Shown in pieces: positions 42,033 through 58,838 of a DNA stretch of 64,000 bases (position 1 is its first letter; each line of letters begins with the position of its first letter). This DNA is from Gammaproteobacteria bacterium (GTDB taxonomy: Bacteria > Pseudomonadota > Gammaproteobacteria > S012-40): the NCBI GenBank assembly GCA_029881255.1, contig JAOUMY010000003.1, forward strand, positions 182,732-246,731, read 5' to 3'. The notes under the pieces were generated by a model. That model did not search any database, was not told the origin of the DNA, and saw nothing but the letters and a program-made list of their open reading frames with translations. Made by a program: the position numbers and the translations under genes.

Positions 42033-43007
42033 CTAGAAATCTGCTTCGTACCAGGAAAATGCGACGCTACCTCGCAAAATATTTTTTATCTTATCGATAT
42101 CGGTGGCTGAGAGTTTTGTCTGCCACTTATATGCGGCTTCGAGAGGGTTTTTGTAGACCGAGTAGTATGCCTTTTTGTCTTGCGATGTACTCAATTTGAC
42201 GAATGCTTCGGTTTGTGTACTCCACTGCAAACCCAATTCATTTATTACTCTTTTGGCGATATCCAATGGATTTCGACACAGGTCTTCGTAAATCAAGCGG
42301 TGATAGTTGTGTAGATCCTTACAACCCGCAAAAGCAATCTCGTTATAAAGTCTCCACCGAATGGCAAGCCGTTCTACTGGATCCAGCATCTTCAATTCAT
42401 CAAGACCTATCCCAATATCTTTTCCACAAGCAGTATTCAGCAACATTTCAAAAATTTGAAAATCGTCACTGCTGGGAGTTGAACTCTGAAAGGAGTTTTT
42501 TGACTCCCCGCTAAGAACTGACGATATATAGCCGGCAGGATTTCTAACAATGTGCAGACATTGAGAGCCTTCGATCAGTTGTGAAAACAACGACAACCTA
42601 CCGAGTGATTCGATCGATTTCCAGGCTATGTAAAACTGATTCTTGTTTCGAGATATTCTGGAAATGGGGTTCGCAGTAAAACCAATCTTACCTGCAAGCT
42701 TGGTGGCATAGAGTGATCCCTTATAAGCACTATGCCTTAAACTAGATTGATAGTTCTTTTTGAAAATTGGCAACTTTGAGGTAACCTGCGCCTTTCTCAT
42801 TAATGGAAGGCTTTCAACAAAATGCTTAAGTTCGTCGCCGTATTCTACATCCATTGATTCAACAAACAGGGGAATTCGGTCAAGTCGGTTCCATGAATCC
42901 GGTTCATGTAAATACAACGTATCGGGATTACTATCGATTATTTTTCCTACCCAGGTCGTTCCCGATCTAGGCATTCCAAATAGCAACAAAACTTTTTGAT
43001 CCTTCAT
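42033..43007 (-). CDS. Sulfotransferase family protein
   Basis: 324-residue cytosolic-type sulfotransferase. The 5'-phosphosulfate loop is LFGMPRSGTTWVGKIIDSN near residue 9 and the 3'-phosphate site is LHIVRNPAGYISSVLSGE near 164; both PAPS-binding motifs are intact. Its ATG overlaps the amidotransferase stop as TAATG. With an APS kinase domain encoded about 2 kb away at 45341, this argues for sulfation of the exopolysaccharide or its precursor. Confidence 0.83.
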   Translation of the reverse strand: MKDQKVLLLFGMPRSGTTWVGKIIDSNPDTLYLHEPDSWNRLDRIPLFVESMDVEYGDELKHFVESLPLMRKAQVTSKLPIFKKNYQSSLRHSAYKGSLYATKLAGKIGFTANPISRISRNKNQFYIAWKSIESLGRLSLFSQLIEGSQCLHIVRNPAGYISSVLSGESKNSFQSSTPSSDDFQIFEMLLNTACGKDIGIGLDELKMLDPVERLAIRWRLYNEIAFAGCKDLHNYHRLIYEDLCRNPLDIAKRVINELGLQWSTQTEAFVKLSTSQDKKAYYSVYKNPLEAAYKWQTKLSATDIDKIKNILRGSVAFSWYEADF

Positions 43008-45319: not shown

Positions 45320-45340
45320 ATGACAAGAGGAGAGTTAGTG

Positions 45341-47068
45341 ATGTATGGAAATTTGTATGAAGTTTTTGGTCAGAAATCGACGCGTCTGTTTCGGTTGATG
45401 GTATGCGGGGGAAACAGCGGCGACAGGACCGCGTTGCTCAAGAGCATGCGTGTCGATTCTTTAATCCAGATCACTGAGATATTCAGTGAGGCCAGTAAGT
45501 CTTCACTATCCGAATACGATCAAAATTTCCCTGTAATCGAGAGCAGTGCTGATGTCGCCATTATTCTGATTGACGCCTCGACCGGCGTAGACACCGTGGC
45601 CTGCCGTGGTAGCTATATTGTCAACCTGTTGGGAATTCGGCACATCATTGTCGCCGTAGACAACATGGAAAATGCTGGATATTCCGAGGACATGTTTAAA
45701 GCCACCGAAGCAGATTTCCGCGCGCTTGCCTCCCGTCTGGATTTTTCAACCATTACCGTGCTGCCAATATCATCACACAAGCACGACAACATAATGGAAA
45801 GCAGCCCTAATACTCGCTGGTACCAAGGACTGCCTTTAGCCTCTGCACTGAAGAAAATCGAATACTCGAATGACAGAAACAATAAACCTTTTCGACTGCC
45901 AGTGCAGGAAGTCGACAAATCTGATCCAGATTTCCCTCGCATTTCCGGGACGATTGCCAGCGGCGCTGTTTCGCCCGGATTCGATATCGTCGTTCTTCCC
46001 GCAGCAAAGACGGGCAAGGTAAAGTCCATTTCATCCACTTCCAGTGCTCTATCGGAGGGAGCGTCTAATCGACCAGTAACGATCGCATTGGAACAGAGCA
46101 TCGATATTTCTCCTGGTGATGTCATCACGTCGACCGAACATCGCCCCGAGGTCACCGATCAGTTCCGTGCCCATATCGTCTGGTTGCACGACAAACCATT
46201 ATTTCCAGGACGCCCGTATTTGTTTCAAACCTGCAATAAAACTGTCACCGGCGAGGTGACCGAGTTAAGACACAAAATCAATGTGAATTCCTTCGAGCAT
46301 GATGCAGCCAAAGTTCTCGAACAGGGTGAAATCGGGGTGGGTAACGTCGGCCTCGACAAGTCCATTGTTTATGACGCCTATAAGAATGACAAGACGCTTG
46401 GCTCGTTTACCATGGTCGACAAACAAAGCAAGGCGACCGTTGCTTTCGGGGTGATTGAATACGGACTACGTCGCGCCACCAATATTCACTGGCAGGCAGT
46501 GGATGTGGACAAAGCAACCCGTTCCGCACAAAAAAGACAAAAGCCAACCGTATTATGGTTTACTGGTTTAAGTGCCTCGGGCAAATCCACCATAGCCAAT
46601 CTCATTGAGAAGAAACTCCAGGTTCTCGGTAAGCACACCTATTTGCTCGATGGCGATAATGTGCGTCATGGTCTGAATCGAGACCTTGGCTTCGTAGAGG
46701 CCGATCGCGTGGAAAACATCCGTCGTGTCGGTGAGGTCGCGAAGCTTATGGTGGATGCTGGGTTGATTGTGTTAACTGCGTTTATTTCGCCCTTCAAAGC
46801 AGAACGGCGCATGGTGAGAGAATTGCTCGGTGAGCATGAGTTTGTCGAAGTCTTCGTCGATACACCGATTGAAATCTGTGAGCAACGTGACCCCAAAGGA
46901 CTGTATAAGAAGGCGCGCGCTGGTCAGATCAAGAACTTCACCGGTTTGGACAGCCCATACGAAGCACCAGAGACGCCAGAGATACATCTACACATGGCTA
47001 ACCGTACTGCAGAAGAGGCGGCAGACGAAGTTATCGCGAAAATCGAGTCTTATCTTAATCTTCAATAG
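45341..47068 (+). CDS. CysN-like pseudo-GTPase fused to adenylylsulfate kinase (CysC)
   Basis: About 575 residues from the ATG at 45341, eight bases after a GGAG; an ATG at 45320 is possible. The C-terminal APS kinase is intact: [15 protein letters not shown] near residue 410, [28 protein letters not shown] and [16 protein letters not shown]. The N-terminal half is CysN/EF-Tu-like, with good barrel domains ([20 protein letters not shown]), but the GTPase core is broken: P-loop reads [11 protein letters not shown] without the Lys, the DTPGH region is missing, and NKMD is replaced by VDNMEN. About 50 residues are absent relative to usual CysN/C proteins. It should make PAPS from APS but not bind GTP. 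No cysD is adjacent. Confidence 0.85.
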
Positions 47069-48090: not shown

Positions 48091-49503
48091 CTATTCCGTC
48101 GGGACAACTACACGACTGTCTGGCAACAAATCTTGTAACTTAGACTGAAGTGTTTTCTTCGCTTGCGTGTCGCCGTGGACAATACGTATTTCTTGGGGGC
48201 GATTCTGCATACCCATTACAAAATCTATCAAATTTTGTTGATCCGCGTGTGCCGAATAACCCGACAGGGTGTGTACTGCTGCCTTGATATCGTAGCGTTG
48301 ATCATCCAGCATCACATAACCATTGGCAGGCGCGTAACGTTGTATATCGCGCCCCGGTGTCCCTGCCGCCTGATAGCCTACAAACACAATATCGGTACGT
48401 TCATCACCGATGAGAGCCTTGAGATAGTTGACGATACGCCCACCTGCGCACATGCCGCTCGCCGCAATGACTATCGCCGGTTTATGTTTCCTGGAAAGAT
48501 ATTCTACTGTTTGCATGTGCTCTTGGTGTGTGTCCACACAGTATAGTTGCTCAAACGCGAGTGGATGACGACCCTGCTCCACACGTTGCTTCGCCTCAGT
48601 ATCCCAGTATTCTTTTAGCTCACGATAGGATTCGGTAAATTGCGCCGCTAGGGGCGAGTCTACGATAATTTCTATATCCTGCCATAACAAACCATCAGCG
48701 GCTTTCTTGTCCCCGTGTTGATGAATAATTTGCTCAAGCTCGTATAGCAATTCCTGTGTTCTTCCGATACTGAAGGCGGGCACCAAAATGACACCGCTAT
48801 TGAGCAAACAGCGTTCGACAACAGACTTTAGCTGCTGAGTTCGCGCACGTCGATCGGGATGAATACTATCGCCATAGGTACTTTCTATCACCAATATATC
48901 GGCACTTGCTGGCGACGTCGGATCAGGTAACAAGGGAGTATCTGGCGCCCCAAGGTCCCCAGAAAAAACAAGGCGTCTTGAGTCACCCTTGATTTCTGTG
49001 TCGATACTAATATATGCCGACCCAAGGATATGACCAGCAGGTGAAAAACTGACTTGTGCGCTATTTTCACCACCCTCAATTAGATCGGTCAAATCAACCA
49101 GGACGTTATAATCGACGCCTATAATTTTGCTAGACAGAGCATTGACAGTCTTTTGGACTAGAGCCTGGTTGCGAGTAAAGCCGACCTTAATCGCATCTTC
49201 CAGAACTTTAGGTAATAAATATGCGCTCGGTTTGCTGCAGAATATCGGTCCGTTAAATCCCGCAGCGAATAAATAAGGTATACGACCAACGTGGTCGATA
49301 TGGCAATGAGTCACGAGTAATGCGCGAATTTTTTCGATTGGGAATTCAATCTGCAAATGCTCAAAACTAGCACCCGCACCCGAGGTCTCGGCGCCTTGAA
49401 ACAGCCCGCAATCGATAAGCAAAGAATTGTTCGCGTCGAGGACTAGTTCATGACATGACCCTGTTACACCGTTTACCGCTCCATGATGGCGTATCTCAAA
49501 CAC
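48091..49503 (-). CDS. Metallo-beta-lactamase/beta-CASP RNA-processing-type hydrolase
   Basis: 470 residues. The zinc motif ALLVTHCHIDHVGRIPYL lies near residue 61, SFSPAGHILGSAYISI near 155 and the beta-CASP signature VIVIAASGMCAGGRIVNYLKA near 345, with LSGYSAHADQQNL near 415 as the final His motif. This is the CPSF-73/Ysh1-like group of RNA endo/exonucleases. Cytoplasmic. Its start overlaps the preceding glycosyltransferase stop by one base, so it is part of the exosortase transcript. Its link with glycan synthesis is not established. Confidence 0.85.
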   Translation of the reverse strand: MFEIRHHGAVNGVTGSCHELVLDANNSLLIDCGLFQGAETSGAGASFEHLQIEFPIEKIRALLVTHCHIDHVGRIPYLFAAGFNGPIFCSKPSAYLLPKVLEDAIKVGFTRNQALVQKTVNALSSKIIGVDYNVLVDLTDLIEGGENSAQVSFSPAGHILGSAYISIDTEIKGDSRRLVFSGDLGAPDTPLLPDPTSPASADILVIESTYGDSIHPDRRARTQQLKSVVERCLLNSGVILVPAFSIGRTQELLYELEQIIHQHGDKKAADGLLWQDIEIIVDSPLAAQFTESYRELKEYWDTEAKQRVEQGRHPLAFEQLYCVDTHQEHMQTVEYLSRKHKPAIVIAASGMCAGGRIVNYLKALIGDERTDIVFVGYQAAGTPGRDIQRYAPANGYVMLDDQRYDIKAAVHTLSGYSAHADQQNLIDFVMGMQNRPQEIRIVHGDTQAKKTLQSKLQDLLPDSRVVVPTE

Positions 49504-50633
49504 TAGCTACCTCGCCCGCATAACTCGTCATAAACTTTCATATAGTTCGCTATCATCGCGTCCATACTAAACAAGCGTTCCACTCTCGCTCTGCCGGCCT
49601 TGCCATGCTGTTTTAGTAGAGCCTTATCTTTTAGATAGGAGTCAATAGCAGCCGTCATAGCCGACGGATTGTTTGACGGCACCAGCAGCCCGGTATTTCC
49701 ATCGTCGATCAACTCCGGATTTCCTCCCACTGAAGTCGCTACGATGGGGAGTCCACTCGCCATGGCTTCGAGTATGGTGTTGGAGATTCCCTCACCTAAA
49801 GATGGCAACACGAATAGGTCGAGCGCATTTAGCATCGCCGGTACATCATTTCTTGCGCCCGCGAAAATAACACGGTTCGATATCGCTAGTTGTATTGCAA
49901 GCGCTTCAAGCTTCTGACGATCTGGACCATCACCAATCAGAACAAGTCTGGTGTTTTCATTTTTTTCAAGTAGTGCATAAGCCCGAAGCAAAGTCGCCTG
50001 ATCTTTTTCCGCCTGCAGCCTGCCAACCGAACCGACTAAAATTTCGCTTTTGCCAATTCCAAGTTCCTTACGAATCTCCTGGCGACTTTTCTCTGATTGA
50101 GAAAAGCGCTGCATATCCACGCCATTGTAAATTTGAACAATTTTGCGAGGCGAGATTCTCACCTGCTCTTTTAGCCAACTGTCGAGATCTTTTGATAGTG
50201 CAATAAAACGGGCAATCAGAGGATTATAGGCACGTCGCAATATACGATATTTACTATTGCTACCGTCGATGTCACTCATGTCGCGCCCGTGTTCGCCATG
50301 AATTCGATATTTTACACCTGCAAATGCTGCGGGCAATGTGTACTCAATTGTGCCAAGGTTACGTGTGTGCACAATTTGCGGTTTTAGTTTGCGCATAAGT
50401 TTCCAGAAACGGTACTGGGCGCGGATATCGTTTCCAGGTCGCTTGTGTAAGGCATATACTTCGACGTCATCTCGCTGAATACGTTTGCGAAAATCAGTGT
50501 AATCAGACGCGCAGATAATTACATGCCTATAGCAATCTTCTGGCATGCGATTTATCAGGTTGATCAAACCGTTCTCCAGCCCGCCAATCGCCAGTCGGTA
50601 CAACACGTGAACAATGAGTGGTCGTCCCTGCAT
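49503..50633 (-). CDS. Sugar transferase, PEP-CTERM/EpsH1 system-associated
   Basis: 376-residue GT-B glycosyltransferase, the partner found downstream of exosortase A in many genomes. VHVLYRLAIGGLENGLINLI at residue 9 is a typical start for it. KIVQIYNGVDMQRFSQSEK near 165, VGSVGRLQAEKDQATLLRAY near 200 and SLGEGISNTILEAMASGLPI near 285 are visible. It adds a sugar to the lipid-linked unit. It is one base from the xrtA stop. Confidence 0.88.
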   Translation of the reverse strand: MQGRPLIVHVLYRLAIGGLENGLINLINRMPEDCYRHVIICASDYTDFRKRIQRDDVEVYALHKRPGNDIRAQYRFWKLMRKLKPQIVHTRNLGTIEYTLPAAFAGVKYRIHGEHGRDMSDIDGSNSKYRILRRAYNPLIARFIALSKDLDSWLKEQVRISPRKIVQIYNGVDMQRFSQSEKSRQEIRKELGIGKSEILVGSVGRLQAEKDQATLLRAYALLEKNENTRLVLIGDGPDRQKLEALAIQLAISNRVIFAGARNDVPAMLNALDLFVLPSLGEGISNTILEAMASGLPIVATSVGGNPELIDDGNTGLLVPSNNPSAMTAAIDSYLKDKALLKQHGKAGRARVERLFSMDAMIANYMKVYDELCGRGS

Positions 50634-50634
50634 A

Positions 50635-52149
50635 TTATTTCAGGTTAGCGGATTTCAAACTTGTCATAACTGCGCCATGTATACTTTCCAACTCCATCTG
50701 TAACGCATTGTAAGAGTCCTCGAAATGCTCACTCATAGGCATTGCAATCGTAACAATGCTCGCCGTCTTGTCACCGCCAACTATGCGGGTCTTGGCTTCG
50801 CGCAATTTTGCAATATAGTCATTAATCGTAATCTCGCCGTCAACGATGAAATAATGCGCTACTATTAATCTGACGGTCGGTGATTTCACTTCTGAAACTC
50901 TGACTTCGTTGTTGCCGAATGTAACTCTCCCCTTATCTACCACGCGCCAATTTTTTTCCTCTGCCGGCACAAGAAGGTTTGTTGAGGTGATTAATTCGGC
51001 GCCTTGCCTCTGTTGTACATAGTAGCCTACATAGAGAAATAAGGATTTTTCTTCCTGTTGATATACTTGATCAATCTCCGCATCAACACCAAGATAAGTC
51101 GGCCTCCATTCACTCTGGCCCCCAGCGGCATGCCAGCCCACTGGTACCGGTGACTTTAGGGAGATCGACAGCGTGCCTTTAGAAACCTGAGATTCGGAAT
51201 ATGCGAACAAAGGTGCAATCCCAACAGACACTACTGCTAGAACCAATGCATACAAAACCTGTTTCCTCGGTACTTTTATCGTATCAAGAGAATGTTGCTT
51301 GTGTTCCGCTGCTTTTTTCTGATCCAAGTCCTCGCGCCAAAACGAACCGATATAAAACATAATCGCAATTACTACACCGAAAAACAGCCAGCCATATATC
51401 AAATGATCTACACCGGTGGCTAACTGCATATCGCTATAATGACCTATCATGACTATCATGAATGCCCGCAGGCCATTAGCGATTACTGGAACAAGAATAG
51501 AAACCAAAACAAATAACACGCGTTTCCAAAGTGTTCGATAGGTTAGGTAGGCATATAGAAAACCCAATGTTATCGATGCTATTAGATATCTCACGCCGCT
51601 ACAGGCTTCAACAACCGACCAATTTCCCGTGGGTAATTCAAAATAAGTTCCCTCACGAAATATTGGAATACCCACAAATTTCACCATAGCCACGGTAAAA
51701 TCAGCAGTAAACTCTATCATCGAGGGAACCAAGCCTTCTCCCATGGGCACAGCAAACAATAGAAAGAATAGTGCAAACGATATTTCTCGCGTCGCCTGCC
51801 AACCCAATAGTGAAAGCACCAGAAACGGAATCATCGAAACCAGGGCTAATTGTTGAATGACTAGTACATCAACAAGATAGGCCAGCAACCACAACAAACT
51901 GAGTAGAAAGAGAATAAACTGGGGCCACAATATCGGATTGGGTGATTTAGATATTACGTCATCACGTCTTTGCCAAATCAGCCAGAAAGCAATCGGAAAT
52001 ATCAAGAATCCATGCGCAAATGTTTCCGAGCGTATCCAGATATCCACCATCGAGGCGGTCGTCGGATAGTAGAGCACAAGAAGAAAAATGACGCTGGCGA
52101 GAGCTAGTACACTTATCTGCATCCAATTCAAGGCAGTTGTGTTATTCAT
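50635..52149 (-). CDS. xrtA: Exosortase A (XrtA/EpsH) with fused EpsI domain
   Basis: 504-residue inner-membrane cysteine protease/transpeptidase that recognises PEP-CTERM signals. About eight transmembrane segments fill residues 10-265. The catalytic set is intact: Cys183 in VVEACSGVRYL, Arg228 in ANGLRAFMIV and His249 in GVDHLIYGW. A soluble C-terminal EpsI-like domain (about residues 300-500, with GWHAAGGQSEWRPTYLG) is fused, as is usual for exosortase A. The start overlaps the upstream glycosyltransferase stop. Its clear substrate in this window is the protein at 3528-4469. Confidence 0.94.
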   Translation of the reverse strand: MNNTTALNWMQISVLALASVIFLLVLYYPTTASMVDIWIRSETFAHGFLIFPIAFWLIWQRRDDVISKSPNPILWPQFILFLLSLLWLLAYLVDVLVIQQLALVSMIPFLVLSLLGWQATREISFALFFLLFAVPMGEGLVPSMIEFTADFTVAMVKFVGIPIFREGTYFELPTGNWSVVEACSGVRYLIASITLGFLYAYLTYRTLWKRVLFVLVSILVPVIANGLRAFMIVMIGHYSDMQLATGVDHLIYGWLFFGVVIAIMFYIGSFWREDLDQKKAAEHKQHSLDTIKVPRKQVLYALVLAVVSVGIAPLFAYSESQVSKGTLSISLKSPVPVGWHAAGGQSEWRPTYLGVDAEIDQVYQQEEKSLFLYVGYYVQQRQGAELITSTNLLVPAEEKNWRVVDKGRVTFGNNEVRVSEVKSPTVRLIVAHYFIVDGEITINDYIAKLREAKTRIVGGDKTASIVTIAMPMSEHFEDSYNALQMELESIHGAVMTSLKSANLK

Positions 52150-53375
52150 ATTTTCATCTCCTGCTGAGCCTTATGTCCCGACAAAATGCTATCCAGTTTC
52201 TGAATATTTGATGACCAACTATAGTCTGCCATCACTCGACGCCGAGCAGCCTGGCCAATTGAACTTCCGGTATTTCGATCTCGACCCAGAACCTCTAACA
52301 CGGCCAAAAACTGTTCCACGGTATCAGCAACAAAGAGTTCTTCATCAACTCGAGCCTTAATGCCTTCAAAACCGAGTGACGACGTAATTACCGGTTTTGC
52401 CATTGCCATGGCTTCAAGCACTTTGTTTTGTATGCCACGTGCAATGCGCATAGGCGCGACAGAAAATTCTGCATATGCGATATAAGGTCGCACATCAGCA
52501 ACCCGCCCTGTTACGGTTACTATTCCGGGACTGTCTAGAGACTGTACCTCGACAGTTGGCTTCGATCCGACGATAAAAAACTCGAATTTCTGGTCGCTGG
52601 CTTTAATTGATGGCAGTACCTCTTTTACAAACCACACAACAGCATCCACATTTGCCCAGTAATCCATCGCCCCAGTGAAGACTATGGGTCTCACACCCTC
52701 CGCATACGGACTTTTCAATTCATGTTGTGGCGAGAAATAATCGGCATCCACACCATTATTCACAAACCCAATATCTACACTAGTGTCATTAAGCTTGCCA
52801 GAGAATGATTCGGCTTCGGCTGAAGAAACAAAGAGCGAGCAATCAAATTCTTTTGATACCTTCTGCTCATATTTGCCAAGCAAGCGACCTTCTCTTGCGT
52901 ATACATAGCTCATGGGCCAGGATTTATTTGTGGCATATTGCAGCCACTTATCTGAGTCCATATCGACAAAATCGATCACTCGAGTCATGTCCAATAAATG
53001 ATCGCCTTCGACGTATTGCGCCATCGATGAGGAAAATATCAAACACTTCTCAACAGCATTGACATGAACCACTTGTTCTACCCAATGTTGCATTTTCTTC
53101 GAATAGTAATATGAAAGCGTCAAAGGTGAATTGGACAATAGACCTTTTGCCGATTTCAATTTTGCAAGACGCGTATTCATTTGTTCAATATAGACATCAG
53201 CACAATACGGTTTTAATTGTTCGATGTATTGCATGTCTTCCGGTTCATCGACGAAACATCCGAGATAAATCTCATATTGTCGCGCCAAGCCTTTCAGCCA
53301 ATGGAAGGACCGGATCTTGTCTCCCTTGTTAGGCGGAAAGGGAATTCGATGAACAAGATAAAGTAACTTTTCCAT
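52146..53375 (-). CDS. Glycosyltransferase, PEP-CTERM/XrtA system-associated (stp1 type)
   Basis: About 409 residues from the ATG at 53375, four bases after the FemAB stop with GGGA seven bases upstream; a start at 53411 would add 12 non-conserved residues. The opening LLYLVHRIPFPPNKGDKIRS is diagnostic of this XrtA-linked family. GAMDYWANVDAVVWFVKEVL near residue 220 and IARGIQNKVLEAMAMAKPVI near 310 complete the GT-B pattern. It overlaps xrtA by four bases. Confidence 0.9.
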   Translation of the reverse strand: MEKLLYLVHRIPFPPNKGDKIRSFHWLKGLARQYEIYLGCFVDEPEDMQYIEQLKPYCADVYIEQMNTRLAKLKSAKGLLSNSPLTLSYYYSKKMQHWVEQVVHVNAVEKCLIFSSSMAQYVEGDHLLDMTRVIDFVDMDSDKWLQYATNKSWPMSYVYAREGRLLGKYEQKVSKEFDCSLFVSSAEAESFSGKLNDTSVDIGFVNNGVDADYFSPQHELKSPYAEGVRPIVFTGAMDYWANVDAVVWFVKEVLPSIKASDQKFEFFIVGSKPTVEVQSLDSPGIVTVTGRVADVRPYIAYAEFSVAPMRIARGIQNKVLEAMAMAKPVITSSLGFEGIKARVDEELFVADTVEQFLAVLEVLGRDRNTGSSIGQAARRRVMADYSWSSNIQKLDSILSGHKAQQEMKI

Positions 53376-53379
53376 TCGA

Positions 53380-54405
53380 CTATCCCAGGTAGCGATTGAT
53401 CTTTGGCCCAATCACTTTTGTTGCCCAAAAAGGCAGCTTTTTCCAGGTATTGATAAACACCGCATACTTTGGGTTGGTCGGACTTACATTGGGAACCTCA
53501 GCCGCGTTCACCAGAAAATACTCATATTCAAGCGGCTCTGGCTCGAAACCCCAGTTCTTCTTGAAACTGTATGGCCCCGTACCAACCTTGCTACGTCCGT
53601 AGTCAAACCACTTCAATCCGCGTTCACAGGAACGACGCATCAATTCCCAGTACATGAAATCATGCGCTTTATATTGTCGGGCGAGGTCACTGGCACCGGC
53701 ATAATATGGCAATACTTCACCGCGAAAGTAAAAATTCATGACACTGGATACCAGTTGGCCATCTTTGAATATAGACAGTACATCGCAGTCGTCTTTGAAT
53801 ACTTCTTTCAAAATATGAAATAGCTTACGCGGGAAAGCCGGAGTACCAAGCCCGTGTAGACTATAGGCATAGGATTCGTAAAAACGATCGATGTCCGTAT
53901 CCCATTCGCTATTTAACCCCGCAGAAATACCTTTACGCACAACAGCACGCTGTTTGCGTGGAATATTCGTCATATTCGTTTCGACATCAGGATCAATTTC
54001 CTTTCGGAAACGCGCGTACAGATCAGACTTTACTGCCCAATCAGAATGTTGCTGGCGGATGGTCCTGAATTCCATGTAATCAACATTCAGCTGTTTCGCC
54101 AGCGCTATGGATTTCTGGGTCAAGGCGTCGAAAGCTTCTGTTGAGCTGGAAAGTATTCCACCGTGCACATAAAACGGTAATGATATCAGCGCGTTCCCAA
54201 AAACACGGCTCTTCACTTGCCCCAAGGGCAGCACACCTTTGATTTCGCCCTGCTCTTCAGCATAGAGAAAATACATTGGATGGCCATATGTACGCTGGAT
54301 AACTTCCTTCCACTCAGCACGGTGAAAAAACGTCGCCTCTGGATGTTCAAAAACGAATTTATTCCACGCTGCTGCGTTTTTTGAATCGAGTTCCTTTACT
54401 AGCAT
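53380..54405 (-). CDS. FemAB family XrtA/PEP-CTERM system-associated protein
   Basis: 341 residues. FemAB/GNAT-type acyltransferase fold: FHRAEWKEVIQRTYGHPMYF near residue 27, RQLRAVVRKG-like basic region (PRKQRAVVRKGISAGL near 148), AHDFMYWELMRRSCERGLKW near 260 and FDYGRSKVGTGPYSFKKNWG near 280. FemX-type enzymes move amino acids from aminoacyl-tRNA; the acceptor here is unknown and may be a sugar. It is a constant member of XrtA operons, between the deacetylase and the first glycosyltransferase. Confidence 0.9.
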   Translation of the reverse strand: MLVKELDSKNAAAWNKFVFEHPEATFFHRAEWKEVIQRTYGHPMYFLYAEEQGEIKGVLPLGQVKSRVFGNALISLPFYVHGGILSSSTEAFDALTQKSIALAKQLNVDYMEFRTIRQQHSDWAVKSDLYARFRKEIDPDVETNMTNIPRKQRAVVRKGISAGLNSEWDTDIDRFYESYAYSLHGLGTPAFPRKLFHILKEVFKDDCDVLSIFKDGQLVSSVMNFYFRGEVLPYYAGASDLARQYKAHDFMYWELMRRSCERGLKWFDYGRSKVGTGPYSFKKNWGFEPEPLEYEYFLVNAAEVPNVSPTNPKYAVFINTWKKLPFWATKVIGPKINRYLG

Positions 54406-54406
54406 G

Positions 54407-55252
54407 CTAATCCTTCTTAAAAACCTTATCCATGCGATCCCAGCGAAAGTCCTGCAGCAAGTGATTCAACCTTGCCTCCATTTTCCCCAAGTTCAAATAA
54501 TGCCTAAAGCGCGCCTTCGAACTCAATTGCTGAGGTCGTGGTTGACCGGGATCTATTTCCCATGGATGGAAATAAAACATGCCTGATTTACCTTCCTTTT
54601 CATTAATACTACGCAATGCATAACGTGAAAAAGCATAGGGGTAGGCTCTGAAAAAACCGCCGCCACCTGCGGGCCAACGTTTTCCTAACCAATCGAACGT
54701 GGTCACAGGTACTTCTCTGAATGAACTAGACTCGATAGGTTTGTACATAAACCTTGGCGCATCGGGAATACCATACAGATCATGTTTAACAGGGTAGATG
54801 CTTGAACTGTATTCATGCCCCGTCTCCGCCAGGATATCCAGCGCCCACAAATTGCTCGTACTAATGGAGTAACTAGCGGCGCGATAACCTGTAACTCGCT
54901 CGCCTGACAAATCTTCCAGTATAGCTTTGGTCTTGACTACGTCCTCGCGAAATTGATCAGGGGTTTGTGTCGTAGCGCGCACATGAGAATATCCATGACT
55001 CGCCACTTCATGGCCCTCCGCAATCATGCGCCTAATCAAAGCGGGAAATCGCTCAGCCACCCAGCCAAGTGTAAAAAAAGTAGCATTTATATCCGCTGAG
55101 GCAAAGATATCCATGACCTTGTTGGTATTTCGTTCTACACGCAGTTCCCATTTATCCCAGTCATTCCTCGACACAAATGGTTCAAATGCGGAAACCTGGA
55201 AATAGTCCTCGACATCACAGGTCATAGCGTTCGTAATTTTATTGTCGTTCAT
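54407..55252 (-). CDS. XrtA system polysaccharide deacetylase
   Basis: 281-residue NodB-fold enzyme. MTCDVEDYFQVSAFEPF at residue 10 holds the metal Asp and is diagnostic of the XrtA subfamily; GHEVASHGYSHVRATTQTPD near 82 gives the His-x3-His motif; RAASYSIS and the final FYFHPWEIDPGQPRP are also conserved. Cytoplasmic or inner-membrane, it would deacetylate an N-acetylhexosamine in the glycan. It ends two bases from the FemAB gene. Confidence 0.9.
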   Translation of the reverse strand: MNDNKITNAMTCDVEDYFQVSAFEPFVSRNDWDKWELRVERNTNKVMDIFASADINATFFTLGWVAERFPALIRRMIAEGHEVASHGYSHVRATTQTPDQFREDVVKTKAILEDLSGERVTGYRAASYSISTSNLWALDILAETGHEYSSSIYPVKHDLYGIPDAPRFMYKPIESSSFREVPVTTFDWLGKRWPAGGGGFFRAYPYAFSRYALRSINEKEGKSGMFYFHPWEIDPGQPRPQQLSSKARFRHYLNLGKMEARLNHLLQDFRWDRMDKVFKKD

Positions 55253-55284
55253 ACTTAACTCAAATTATGTGTAACGAGGATGTT

Positions 55285-56406
55285 TTAAATCCAGGAATTG
55301 ATATGTTCAACAATACGCTCTGCCGCTTTACCATCCCACAAGTCCGGCTTTCTGCCGGCCTTACCGCCATTTTTCATCACGTCAGCAAAGGCAGTGAGTA
55401 TTTTGTCTGGATCTGTTCCGACAACAGTATTCGTACCTTCAGTTACGGTGATCGGACGCTCAGTGTTCTCTCTTAGCGTGATGCACGGTACACCCAAAGC
55501 AGTCGTTTCCTCCTGAATACCGCCGGAATCGGTTAGCACAACCTTGGCATCCGATACCAAACCGAGCAATTCAAGGTAACCAAGTGGTGTCATCTTCAAA
55601 ACATTGTCATTTTCAAAGAATTCTTCCAAACCGAAGGATTCAATCTGTTTTTGTGTTCGGGGATGAACAGGAAAAACGATGGGAATATCTTTGCTAACCG
55701 TAGTCAAAGTGCTCAGTAAACGCGTCAAGATTTCCTGATTATCGACATTAGAGGGTCTATGCATAGTGACTACGGCATATTGTCCATTCTGCTCGAGGAA
55801 TTTTCTTCCTTTTTCAAAAGCAGTGAGTGTCGTTTTGGATGATACTGAATTGCCTAAATTGTACATCAGTGTATCAATCATGACATTGCCAGCAAATATG
55901 ACCCGCGCGCGATCAATACCCTCTCGTGCCAGATTATCTTCTGCCGATTTTTCCGTCGTATACAGCCAATCAGAAATCTGGTCCGTAAGAACTCTGTTAA
56001 CCTCTTCCGGCATTTGCCTATCGTAGCTACGTAGACCTGATTCAACATGTATAACCGGAATATTTTTCTTGGAAGCAACCAGCGCGCACGCAATGGTCGA
56101 GTTCACGTCTCCAACAACTAATATGGCAGACGGTTTCTGCTCATCAATCACAGGCTCAAATCGCTTCATAACCTCCGCGGTTTGCACCGCGTGTGAACCA
56201 GACCCGACCTCCAGATCAATATCCGGCTCCGGAATACCTAGTTGGTCAAAAAACTGATGTTTCATCGCTTTATCATAGTGCTGCCCCGTATGCACAAGTA
56301 CAGCCTTTGCCTTACCCTGCGCCTTAAATGCCCGCATAATTGGGGCAATCTTCATGAAATTAGGACGTGCCCCTACGACACATAAAACGATTTTTTCCTT
56401 ACTCAT
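55285..56406 (-). CDS. wecB: UDP-N-acetylglucosamine 2-epimerase (non-hydrolysing)
   Basis: 373 residues. Converts UDP-GlcNAc to UDP-ManNAc. GARPNFMKIAPIMRAFK near residue 12, VHTGQHYDKAMKHQFFDQL near 38, VHVESGLRSYDRQMPEEVNR near 115 and VLTDSGGIQEETTALGVPCI near 290 match WecB. ManNAc or a derivative is therefore a likely component of the exopolysaccharide. It stands where XrtA operons usually have an epimerase, between the outer-membrane protein and the deacetylase. Confidence 0.92.
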   Translation of the reverse strand: MSKEKIVLCVVGARPNFMKIAPIMRAFKAQGKAKAVLVHTGQHYDKAMKHQFFDQLGIPEPDIDLEVGSGSHAVQTAEVMKRFEPVIDEQKPSAILVVGDVNSTIACALVASKKNIPVIHVESGLRSYDRQMPEEVNRVLTDQISDWLYTTEKSAEDNLAREGIDRARVIFAGNVMIDTLMYNLGNSVSSKTTLTAFEKGRKFLEQNGQYAVVTMHRPSNVDNQEILTRLLSTLTTVSKDIPIVFPVHPRTQKQIESFGLEEFFENDNVLKMTPLGYLELLGLVSDAKVVLTDSGGIQEETTALGVPCITLRENTERPITVTEGTNTVVGTDPDKILTAFADVMKNGGKAGRKPDLWDGKAAERIVEHINSWI

Positions 56407-56418
56407 TATTACTCCGGT

Positions 56419-57888
56419 CTAATATTTTAACTGTATAGAAGCGGTTACCAGGTGATGGCGTTGATTTGCAATCTCATTAGATGAATCCCGCTTCAGATAA
56501 TAGTACTCAAGTTTTGCCTTAACTCTTTTTGAGAGCCTATGAGTGTAACTTGCACTTCCTTCGTAGATATTGTCATCTTTACTAACTCGACCATATCCGC
56601 CGTGTTCGAATAGTGCCGACGTAGCGATACTTCCTGCAGAGAAAACCTTCAACGTCCACGAAAAGTTAACACCATACGATTCCTCAAAGAAGTTCTGTTC
56701 CTGAAACACGCGATGCTCTTTATGGAGTTGCAACACACCTAGATTTCGCTTTCCTCGAATAGAGTATTTCGCAGTCGAAAGTTTTTTCACAAAAACGCCG
56801 TCTTCAATTGTTTGCAATACTCGGCGCTTAATATTCGCAACCTCTCCAGTAAAGACTGAAGCGGTTAGTTCGTCGCCCACATTCTCAAAAACGCTCTGCG
56901 TATCAATATATGTCCTTGAAGTCAGGTCTTCCGAATGTATCAGCTCGATACTTGACTTTCGGAATTCGTGTTTAAGAAATGTCGTCCAAGTTTTTCCGAT
57001 TACGCTTTTTCCGATAGATGCGAGGGCCTCAGTCCTAGAACCGATTTCCCAACTACCACTGACTCGATACGTTTCGCCATACGACCGCCGACCGTACAAT
57101 GCATCCAATTTCATGTCACGACCCAATAGTGCAGATAGCATTGCTTCCGCAAAATATCCGCTGGTCGCAAACTTGTTTGAACTCGCCATTTGGGGATTTT
57201 GCTCGTAGCCGCCTTTCGCACTCAAACTCAAGCGGCGAATTAAACGCACACCCATGGCAGCTTGAGCGGTTCGTGTATACGGCCTTGCAGAATTTGTGTA
57301 ACGAATACGATCCTGTTTAGCATCAAAGCGCCAAAACATTCGCTGGAATAAATCACCACTACGCAACACTGCTTCTATTTGGTGACTTTCGTTATCAGTG
57401 GCTCGGATAGAATTATACTTGTTTTGCGCGACTCTTCCTTGTAATTCGCCAACTAGCAGATGTGCGACAGGCTGTTTCCAGTCAATCGATGCTGCATAAG
57501 CTTCGTAGTCAGAATATAATTCATTAAACGTTAATTCATTTTTTAAGGTTATCGTATTCAGTGGACTGTAATACCGTCGCTCCTGATTCCCTAGTAACTT
57601 TATGTTCGCACGTTTCTCGATTAATTCAAGATTTGAAGCAATCCTATACTGATGCTCTTCATCAAACTGTTCATAGTTTCGTAGCAACATGCGCTGAACA
57701 TAAGAATATTCCACATCGGTCTGGGTTCTTGGCGTCTTTAATTCTAAATCGACGCCAGGAGAGAATTCGGTAATTAAGTTACGTTCACGTCTGGAACTAA
57801 ATATTAAATGAGCAGCGGTTTGAGAAACATTCAGGCTTGGAGCAAGTGTTAACTCGTTTGCATGCACGAAACCAGCCTCAAGTATCAC
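56419..57888 (-). CDS. TIGR03016-type PEP-CTERM system outer-membrane protein; 5' end out of frame
   Basis: 489 residues from the first in-frame GTG, a beta-strand-rich protein of the TIGR03016 family, predicted outer-membrane barrel. Alternating-residue strands such as TDVEYSYVQRMLLRNYEQFD and the final HHLVTASIQLKY with an aromatic C-terminus fit a barrel. The GTG at 57888 falls inside a signal peptide; the preceding in-frame codons read LLKHVVGFLIFTFV, then ILEAGFVHA. The likely start (GTG 57950 or ATG 57944, with AAGGA upstream) is out of frame because of an A10 run and meets TGA after about eight codons. One more A, or -1 slippage, would restore the full protein. Either the gene is phase-variable or slippage-dependent, or the run is a sequencing error. 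Confidence 0.8.
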   Translation of the reverse strand: MILEAGFVHANELTLAPSLNVSQTAAHLIFSSRRERNLITEFSPGVDLELKTPRTQTDVEYSYVQRMLLRNYEQFDEEHQYRIASNLELIEKRANIKLLGNQERRYYSPLNTITLKNELTFNELYSDYEAYAASIDWKQPVAHLLVGELQGRVAQNKYNSIRATDNESHQIEAVLRSGDLFQRMFWRFDAKQDRIRYTNSARPYTRTAQAAMGVRLIRRLSLSAKGGYEQNPQMASSNKFATSGYFAEAMLSALLGRDMKLDALYGRRSYGETYRVSGSWEIGSRTEALASIGKSVIGKTWTTFLKHEFRKSSIELIHSEDLTSRTYIDTQSVFENVGDELTASVFTGEVANIKRRVLQTIEDGVFVKKLSTAKYSIRGKRNLGVLQLHKEHRVFQEQNFFEESYGVNFSWTLKVFSAGSIATSALFEHGGYGRVSKDDNIYEGSASYTHRLSKRVKAKLEYYYLKRDSSNEIANQRHHLVTASIQLKY

Positions 57889-57929
57889 AAAGGTAAAGAT
57901 GAGAAAACCGACGACGTGTTTCAGAAGTG

Positions 57930-57939
57930 TTTTTTTTTT
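57930..57939 (-). repeat. A10 homopolymer in the 5' end of the outer-membrane protein gene
   Basis: Ten T on the plus strand, ten A on the coding strand, directly after ATGTT. The run is a classic slippage site and separates the only good start codons from the signal-peptide frame. Confidence 0.85.
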
Positions 57940-57953
57940 AACATGGGCACAGA

Positions 57954-58838
57954 CTATTCCTTGTCCTTTGCTCCATAAGCACCATAGCCATAGTATGAAC
58001 CATAGTAGTTCCCTGACGATTTGCCGCGAAACTTGTTAAGCACCAGGCCTACGGTTTGTTGATCGGTATTTAGATAGGAGAGCGCTTCCTTGATAACCGG
58101 TTCAGCGGTTTTTACCGATTCAACCACTACGAGAATTTGCCCCATCAATCCAGCAAGAACCCTGGCCTCACTGGTCGCAAGCAATGGTGGCGAATCAAAT
58201 ATCACAACTCGATCGGGATAACGCTCTGATAATTCCATAGTCAGGTTATACATTGATTCGCTGGCAAGCACCTCAGTTGCATGAGAATGCAAACGGCCAG
58301 CGGGAAGCAATCGGAGGTTTTCAACATTCGTATTGAGCAAAACATCGGACAATTCGAGGTCGTCGTCGAGCAGATAGTCGACCAAACCAACATCGGTATC
58401 CAGCCCAAGATATTTCATGGCTGAGGGTTTGGCAACATCTGCGTCAATTAAAAGAACCTTGCGATCTAACTCCATCGATATACTCATAGCGAGGTTTATA
58501 GAGTTAAACGATTTGCCTTCGCCAGGTACCGCGCTGGTTACCATTATCAGATTACCGCGGTCATTTACTTTACCTGAATTACTAAACGCATTGCGCAAAA
58601 GTGGGCGCTTGATTGCCCGCATCTCTTCCGCTATACGACTACGACCGTTCTTGGTTGTCAGCATTCCCGCTGCTTCAAGCCGCTCAAGATCAATTTGAAC
58701 TTCTTTTTTCGTCTGCCGTTTCCCTGTCGCGACGGCTGACTGACGAGAAACAATACTGTTACTCTCGCTCTCGCCTGTTTGAGCTCCTTGCACCTTATTC
58801 TGACGATTTTTTTGGAGAGCTTTTTCAATGGTGTTCAT
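57954..58838 (-). CDS. XrtA-associated tyrosine autokinase (BY-kinase)
   Basis: 294 residues from the ATG at 58838 (GGGGA six bases upstream, overlapping region TGATATG with the previous stop); an upstream start at 58940 would lie inside the chain-length gene. Walker A SAVPGEGKSFNSINLAMSI near residue 101, A' VLLIDADVAKPSAM near 127 and Walker B VVIFDSPPLLATSEAR near 212. The C-terminal GNYYGSYYGYGAYG is the autophosphorylated Tyr cluster. It works with the adjacent Wzz-like protein to control polymer length and export. Confidence 0.93.
   Translation of the reverse strand: MNTIEKALQKNRQNKVQGAQTGESESNSIVSRQSAVATGKRQTKKEVQIDLERLEAAGMLTTKNGRSRIAEEMRAIKRPLLRNAFSNSGKVNDRGNLIMVTSAVPGEGKSFNSINLAMSISMELDRKVLLIDADVAKPSAMKYLGLDTDVGLVDYLLDDDLELSDVLLNTNVENLRLLPAGRLHSHATEVLASESMYNLTMELSERYPDRVVIFDSPPLLATSEARVLAGLMGQILVVVESVKTAEPVIKEALSYLNTDQQTVGLVLNKFRGKSSGNYYGSYYGYGAYGAKDKE

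Follow-up and report, generated by a model that had tools for sequence, protein, structure and literature searches.

Closest described systems

In Citrobacter rodentium, the A11 tract of tssM1 is subject to transcriptional frameshifting, with 20-25% restored frame (PMC4256274). The gene analyzed here, which encodes a predicted outer-membrane β-barrel protein (OMP) of an XrtA exopolysaccharide (EPS) locus, resembles tssM1 in that a poly-A run throws a cell-envelope gene out of frame and an added A restores it. The two genes differ in that the tssM1 tract lies late in the gene, its slippage is proven and both products are needed (PMC4256274), whereas the A10 tract of the OMP gene stands at its start, slippage is predicted and the short product has only nine residues. 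Poly-A tracts (A8/A9) also phase-vary the polysaccharide genes wbeL and manA of Vibrio cholerae, where a tract shortened by one A gives a truncated protein and reversibility has been confirmed for manA only (PMC3441752). The OMP gene shares with them a poly-A tract in a surface-polysaccharide gene; however, wbeL and manA encode biosynthesis enzymes with observed variants, whereas the OMP is a putative export barrel for which a single sequence is known. A third comparison is offered by inlA of Listeria monocytogenes, in which a shorter tract (A6/A7) is likewise found close to the 5' end of a gene encoding a surface protein. Poly-A near gene 5' ends has been proposed as a general regulator, and the reported 5' bias of homopolymers concerns runs of 5-8 and not those above 8 (PMC2831843).

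As regards the export machinery, the EpsY-EpsX pair of Myxococcus xanthus exemplifies short OPX proteins that have no outer-membrane helix and work with a β-barrel partner (PMC9601211, PMC9603273). The present locus is similar in combining a short OPX protein and an outer-membrane barrel within one polysaccharide cluster. A term search in these two publications found no mention of XrtA or PEP-CTERM.

The XrtA locus and its barrel protein

The window, i.e., the whole stretch of 64,000 nucleotides that was analyzed, carries an exosortase A locus on its minus strand. It includes genes for a short OPX export protein of 200 aa (TIGR03027; 60523..61125), an XrtA polysaccharide chain-length determinant (TIGR03007; 58840..60420) and an XrtA-associated tyrosine autokinase (TIGR03018; 57954..58940, with the true start downstream of the listed TTG). 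Downstream of the OMP gene follow closely spaced genes (49503..56406) encoding an epimerase, an XrtA deacetylase, a FemAB-like protein, a glycosyltransferase, exosortase A and another glycosyltransferase; an XrtA amidotransferase is also present, and the XrtA operon is otherwise complete-looking. The OMP gene itself sits after the XrtA kinase, as expected for TIGR03016.

The mature OMP is encoded at 56419..57855 on the minus strand. Its body matched TIGR03016 (PEP-CTERM system-associated outer-membrane protein) with 98.9 bits against a cut-off of 90.85, over residues 30-508 and thus nearly full length. The AlphaFold2 model (56422-57864, minus strand), built with 40 sequences, was a confident barrel (pLDDT 87.7, pTM 0.82) with approximately 24 β-strands, as counted by hand in the DSSP string, whereas barrels of the EpsX type are described as 18-stranded (PMC9601211, PMC9603273). 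The PDB sequence search with the TIGR03016 family profile returned no match, and the fold search with the OMP model retrieved generic outer-membrane barrels only, with poor superposition. Since the protein is modelled as a β-barrel, it must be exported. The length of the OPX protein (~200 aa), the synteny and the predicted barrel agree with a short OPX/β-barrel translocon, and by analogy the OMP barrel may serve as the polymer export pore, in which case loss of its signal peptide should block or lower export.

Reading frames at the poly-A tract

Direct reading of the minus strand gives ...AAGGAATAG TCT GTG CCC ATG TTA AAA AAA AAA CAC TTC TGA, with the A10 tract (T10 on the plus strand) at 57930..57939 and the A of TTA as its first base. 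The initial annotation had reported that start codons with a good ribosome-binding site read into the tract and soon stop, and this was confirmed: GTG 57950 or ATG 57944 opens a short frame (57921..57950) of nine codons followed by TGA at 57923-57921. A Shine-Dalgarno-like AAGGA, recognized by eye at 57958..57962, lies 7 nt 5' of GTG 57950 within the last codons of the kinase gene, whose stop codon TAG (57956-57954) is located ahead of the tract.

The OMP frame reads ...TGT GCC CAT GTT AAA AAA AAA ACA CTT CTG AAA CAC... (translated as HVKKKTLLKHVVGFLIFTFVILEAGFVHA|NELTL...) and is open as far as the stop at 56421-56419. Its signal-peptide region (VKKKTLLKHVVGFLIFTFVILEAGFVHA; 57856..57942, minus strand), which begins with HVKKKTLLKH and ends with GFVHA directly before NELTL, has no standard start codon at its head. 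Consistent with the earlier description of a typical signal peptide devoid of a normal start, no ATG, GTG or TTG occurs in this frame before GTG 57888, which falls inside the hydrophobic core. The longest standard ORF of the OMP gene, starting from this GTG, encodes 489 aa without a usable signal peptide, and an annotator would thus miscall the gene and judge its product unexported. When 20,000 segments of 33 codons were drawn at random from the window, only 22 were open with an equally hydrophobic core; the signal peptide is thus not a product of chance. Adding one A to the A10 tract reaches the OMP frame, and the tract has the run length of a poly-A slippage site (about nine or more A/T). 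An in-frame start with a signal peptide is expected of a TIGR03016 member; here the signal peptide is present and the standard start is absent, and this is the only respect in which the OMP copy departs from the family.

Homologous loci in related genomes

The order kinase-then-barrel was found in 79 of the 80 loci scanned across genomes, the exception being a locus (L123) whose contig ends shortly after the kinase. By eye, most of these loci possess an in-frame ATG, GTG or TTG ahead of the signal peptide, and in a few the sole candidate start is remote or doubtful; no frame break like that of the OMP gene was seen among the scanned loci of relatives.

Most relatives are without the tract. The site was compared among relatives, as suggested in the initial annotation. 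In a genome of the same family but another genus (G001; WFPC01000031.1, locus L070), the sequence GTG CAG TGC CCG AAA AAA AAA ACA TTG contains an A10 at the homologous site, which encodes the same KKKTL and is in frame. G004, of the same family, has A7 there, and a long A run is missing from G002 and G007. The tract of G001 is the single A10 of this 2.4-Mb genome and the longest among its ~50 A tracts of 8 or more; for a genome of this size, the chance of the longest tract falling in the OMP gene was estimated as ~1 in 2,000, even granting a gene-start position. Both the source genome and G001 favour AAA near gene starts (in G001, AAA 34 vs. AAG 16 in the first ten codons and 469 vs. 1107 overall), and the product of the AAA and ACA codon fractions near gene starts indicates that a conserved KKKT start would give A10 ~9% of the time without selection for slippage. 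Codon usage was considered as evidence of selection on the A10 of G001, and it was weakened once the preference for AAA and ACA at gene starts had been counted. Poly-A also arises where signal peptides rich in lysine use AAA close to gene starts, and the tract common to the source genome and G001 is therefore suggestive only, whether of function or of common descent. The family and order searches, which covered the same 13 genomes, contained no other species of the source genus, and a contig scan with the OMP as query confirmed no closer relative.

Homopolymeric tracts in the source genome

In the source genome (4.97 Mb, 44 contigs), A/T runs reach a length of 10 or more at five places, compared with ~15 expected from base composition. 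The tract of the OMP gene is the sole intragenic one among the five; the rest are intergenic, including the T-run of a terminator-like hairpin directly upstream of another gene. By itself, an A10 in a stretch of 64 kb is nothing rare (39 of 100 shuffled sequences had one), yet this is the only A/T run of such length inside a gene, and the tract is therefore unusual by its place, not by its existence. None of the ~35 other intragenic homopolymers checked in the genome, which reach A9 and G10, breaks its reading frame; among them are A9 tracts (e.g., in L023, L035, L041, L045, L051 and L056) and four G/C runs of 9-10 (L246, L252, L254 and L259). Within the window, 24 runs (A/T of 7 or more, G/C of 6 or more) sit in unbroken ORFs. 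As no other out-of-frame tract was found, the source species is not clearly a user of such switches. A codon-score coding test around the tracts was too feeble to carry weight.

Two of the in-frame runs occur in genes of separate interest. L246 (~1501-1510; contig C2, near 302393) has a C10 in the final codons of a gene with a PEP-CTERM-like ending (LFGLGLVGIGASRMRRKSKPSPPPKEG), possibly a hypermutable C-terminus. L252 (~1501-1510; contig C4, near 125486) has an in-frame G10 within a frame of 459 codons for a membrane protein that may be polymerase- or ligase-like, and is a candidate for another hypermutable site.

Interpretation of the frame break

The initial annotation had posed a choice between slippage and a sequencing artefact, which we judge to be the right one; its interpretation as a whole finds partial support. 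The most likely reading, to which we assign about an even probability, is that the XrtA EPS barrel gene has, at the start of its signal peptide, a poly-A tract that is slippery and hypermutable and that the sequenced cells carry out of register. This reading is ranked ahead of a miscounted tract and of a plain null mutation. With the tract off by one nucleotide, most transcripts would yield only the nine-residue peptide; RNA polymerase slippage on A10 would add an A in a minority of transcripts and give the normal exported barrel at a lower level, and replication slippage could shift the tract into and out of frame, as with the tracts of wbeL and manA, which would make the state reversible at the DNA level. 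Slippage itself, how strong and how reversible it is, and whether it affects EPS export are our inferences. The frame is broken without decay of the signal peptide or the body, in support of this reading. The sole intragenic position of the tract among the long A/T runs, the other homopolymers that keep their frame and the A10 of G001 also count in its favour; the ~9% expectation for a KKKT start, the absence of the tract from most relatives and the lack of other out-of-frame tracts count against it. The frequency of transcriptional insertions grows exponentially as a run lengthens, and every such insertion in a homopolymer fell within an A/T run (PMC5574713); taken with the 20-25% restoration at the A11 of tssM1 (PMC4256274), this indicates that an A10 one base out of register should still allow a certain amount of normal barrel. 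Of the rescue routes named in the initial annotation, the addition of an A by transcription thus fits known polymerase behaviour, whereas the ribosomal slip fared less well (see below).

The first alternative, possible but unlikely, is that the tract was miscounted in sequencing or assembly and that the OMP gene is ordinary and in frame. No other intragenic A/T run of the genome is as long as this one, and it is at the longest runs that miscounts are most to be expected; the signal peptide and body are intact, and the relatives are in frame. On the other hand, the intragenic runs up to A9 and G10 that keep their frame make general homopolymer miscounting improbable, and the contigs are long, reaching 1.1 Mb.

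A real but plain inactivating mutation, without a regulatory role, by which the sequenced strain lost EPS export, appears to us rather improbable. Genes are most commonly lost by a change of one base in a hypermutable tract, and loss in culture is plausible; nevertheless, slippage at the A10 should still let some product through, the gene displays no further decay, and G001 carries its tract at the same site.

Programmed -1 ribosomal frameshifting is very improbable as the source of the barrel. The slippery heptamer A AAA AAA is correctly framed, and the two frames would be joined by a -1 slip on it; however, the downstream sequence forms a stimulatory structure no better than shuffled sequence (z -0.24 and -0.36), the upstream AAGGA is already spent as an initiation site, and the same slip would harm the relative with A10 (G001). 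Equally improbable is re-initiation at CTG 57924 of the OMP frame, which overlaps the TGA of the short frame in CTGA (57921..57924, minus strand) and would leave a peptide with a charged n-region, core and V-H-A cleavage motif, since CTG is a very poor bacterial start codon, no Shine-Dalgarno sequence lies beside it, and G001, with a TTG at about this position, also has an in-frame GTG upstream.

If real, the slippery tract would subject exopolysaccharide export in an XrtA/PEP-CTERM system to slippage or phase variation at a poly-A site. No report of such a site was found in the literature searched; sites of this known kind have not, to our knowledge, been described in the OMP gene. In the out-of-frame state, ~1.5 kb of message ahead of the closely spaced downstream genes goes untranslated, and polarity on the remainder of the operon is therefore conceivable. 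A broader version of the slippery-tract reading, which we regard as rather improbable, would hold that the signal peptide of the XrtA EPS barrel contains a poly-A switch that different genera have conserved. Frame states would alternate, tract length would set the amount of barrel through polymerase slippage, and expression of the downstream genes, that of exosortase A among them, might also be dampened, with a single tract then able to tune the whole PEP-CTERM surface programme.

Other genes of the cluster

A β-CASP nuclease-like protein is encoded inside the XrtA operon (48091-49503, minus strand); its top NCBIfam match is the type VII CRISPR Cas14 model, with 309 bits, far under the cut-off of 800. 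On the plus strand, a CysN-CysC-like fusion (45320-47068) matched PRK05506 with 645 bits, under the cut-off of 715, and its GTPase P-loop is degenerate (GGNSGDRT). A 5' frameshift in this gene was considered as a sign of poor assembly and rejected, as the absent P-loop looks like sequence divergence and not a frame break. The gene shares the EPS cluster with another (42033-43007) that has a weak match to NoeE (sulfotransferase), and the two products could perhaps take part in sulfation of the polymer.
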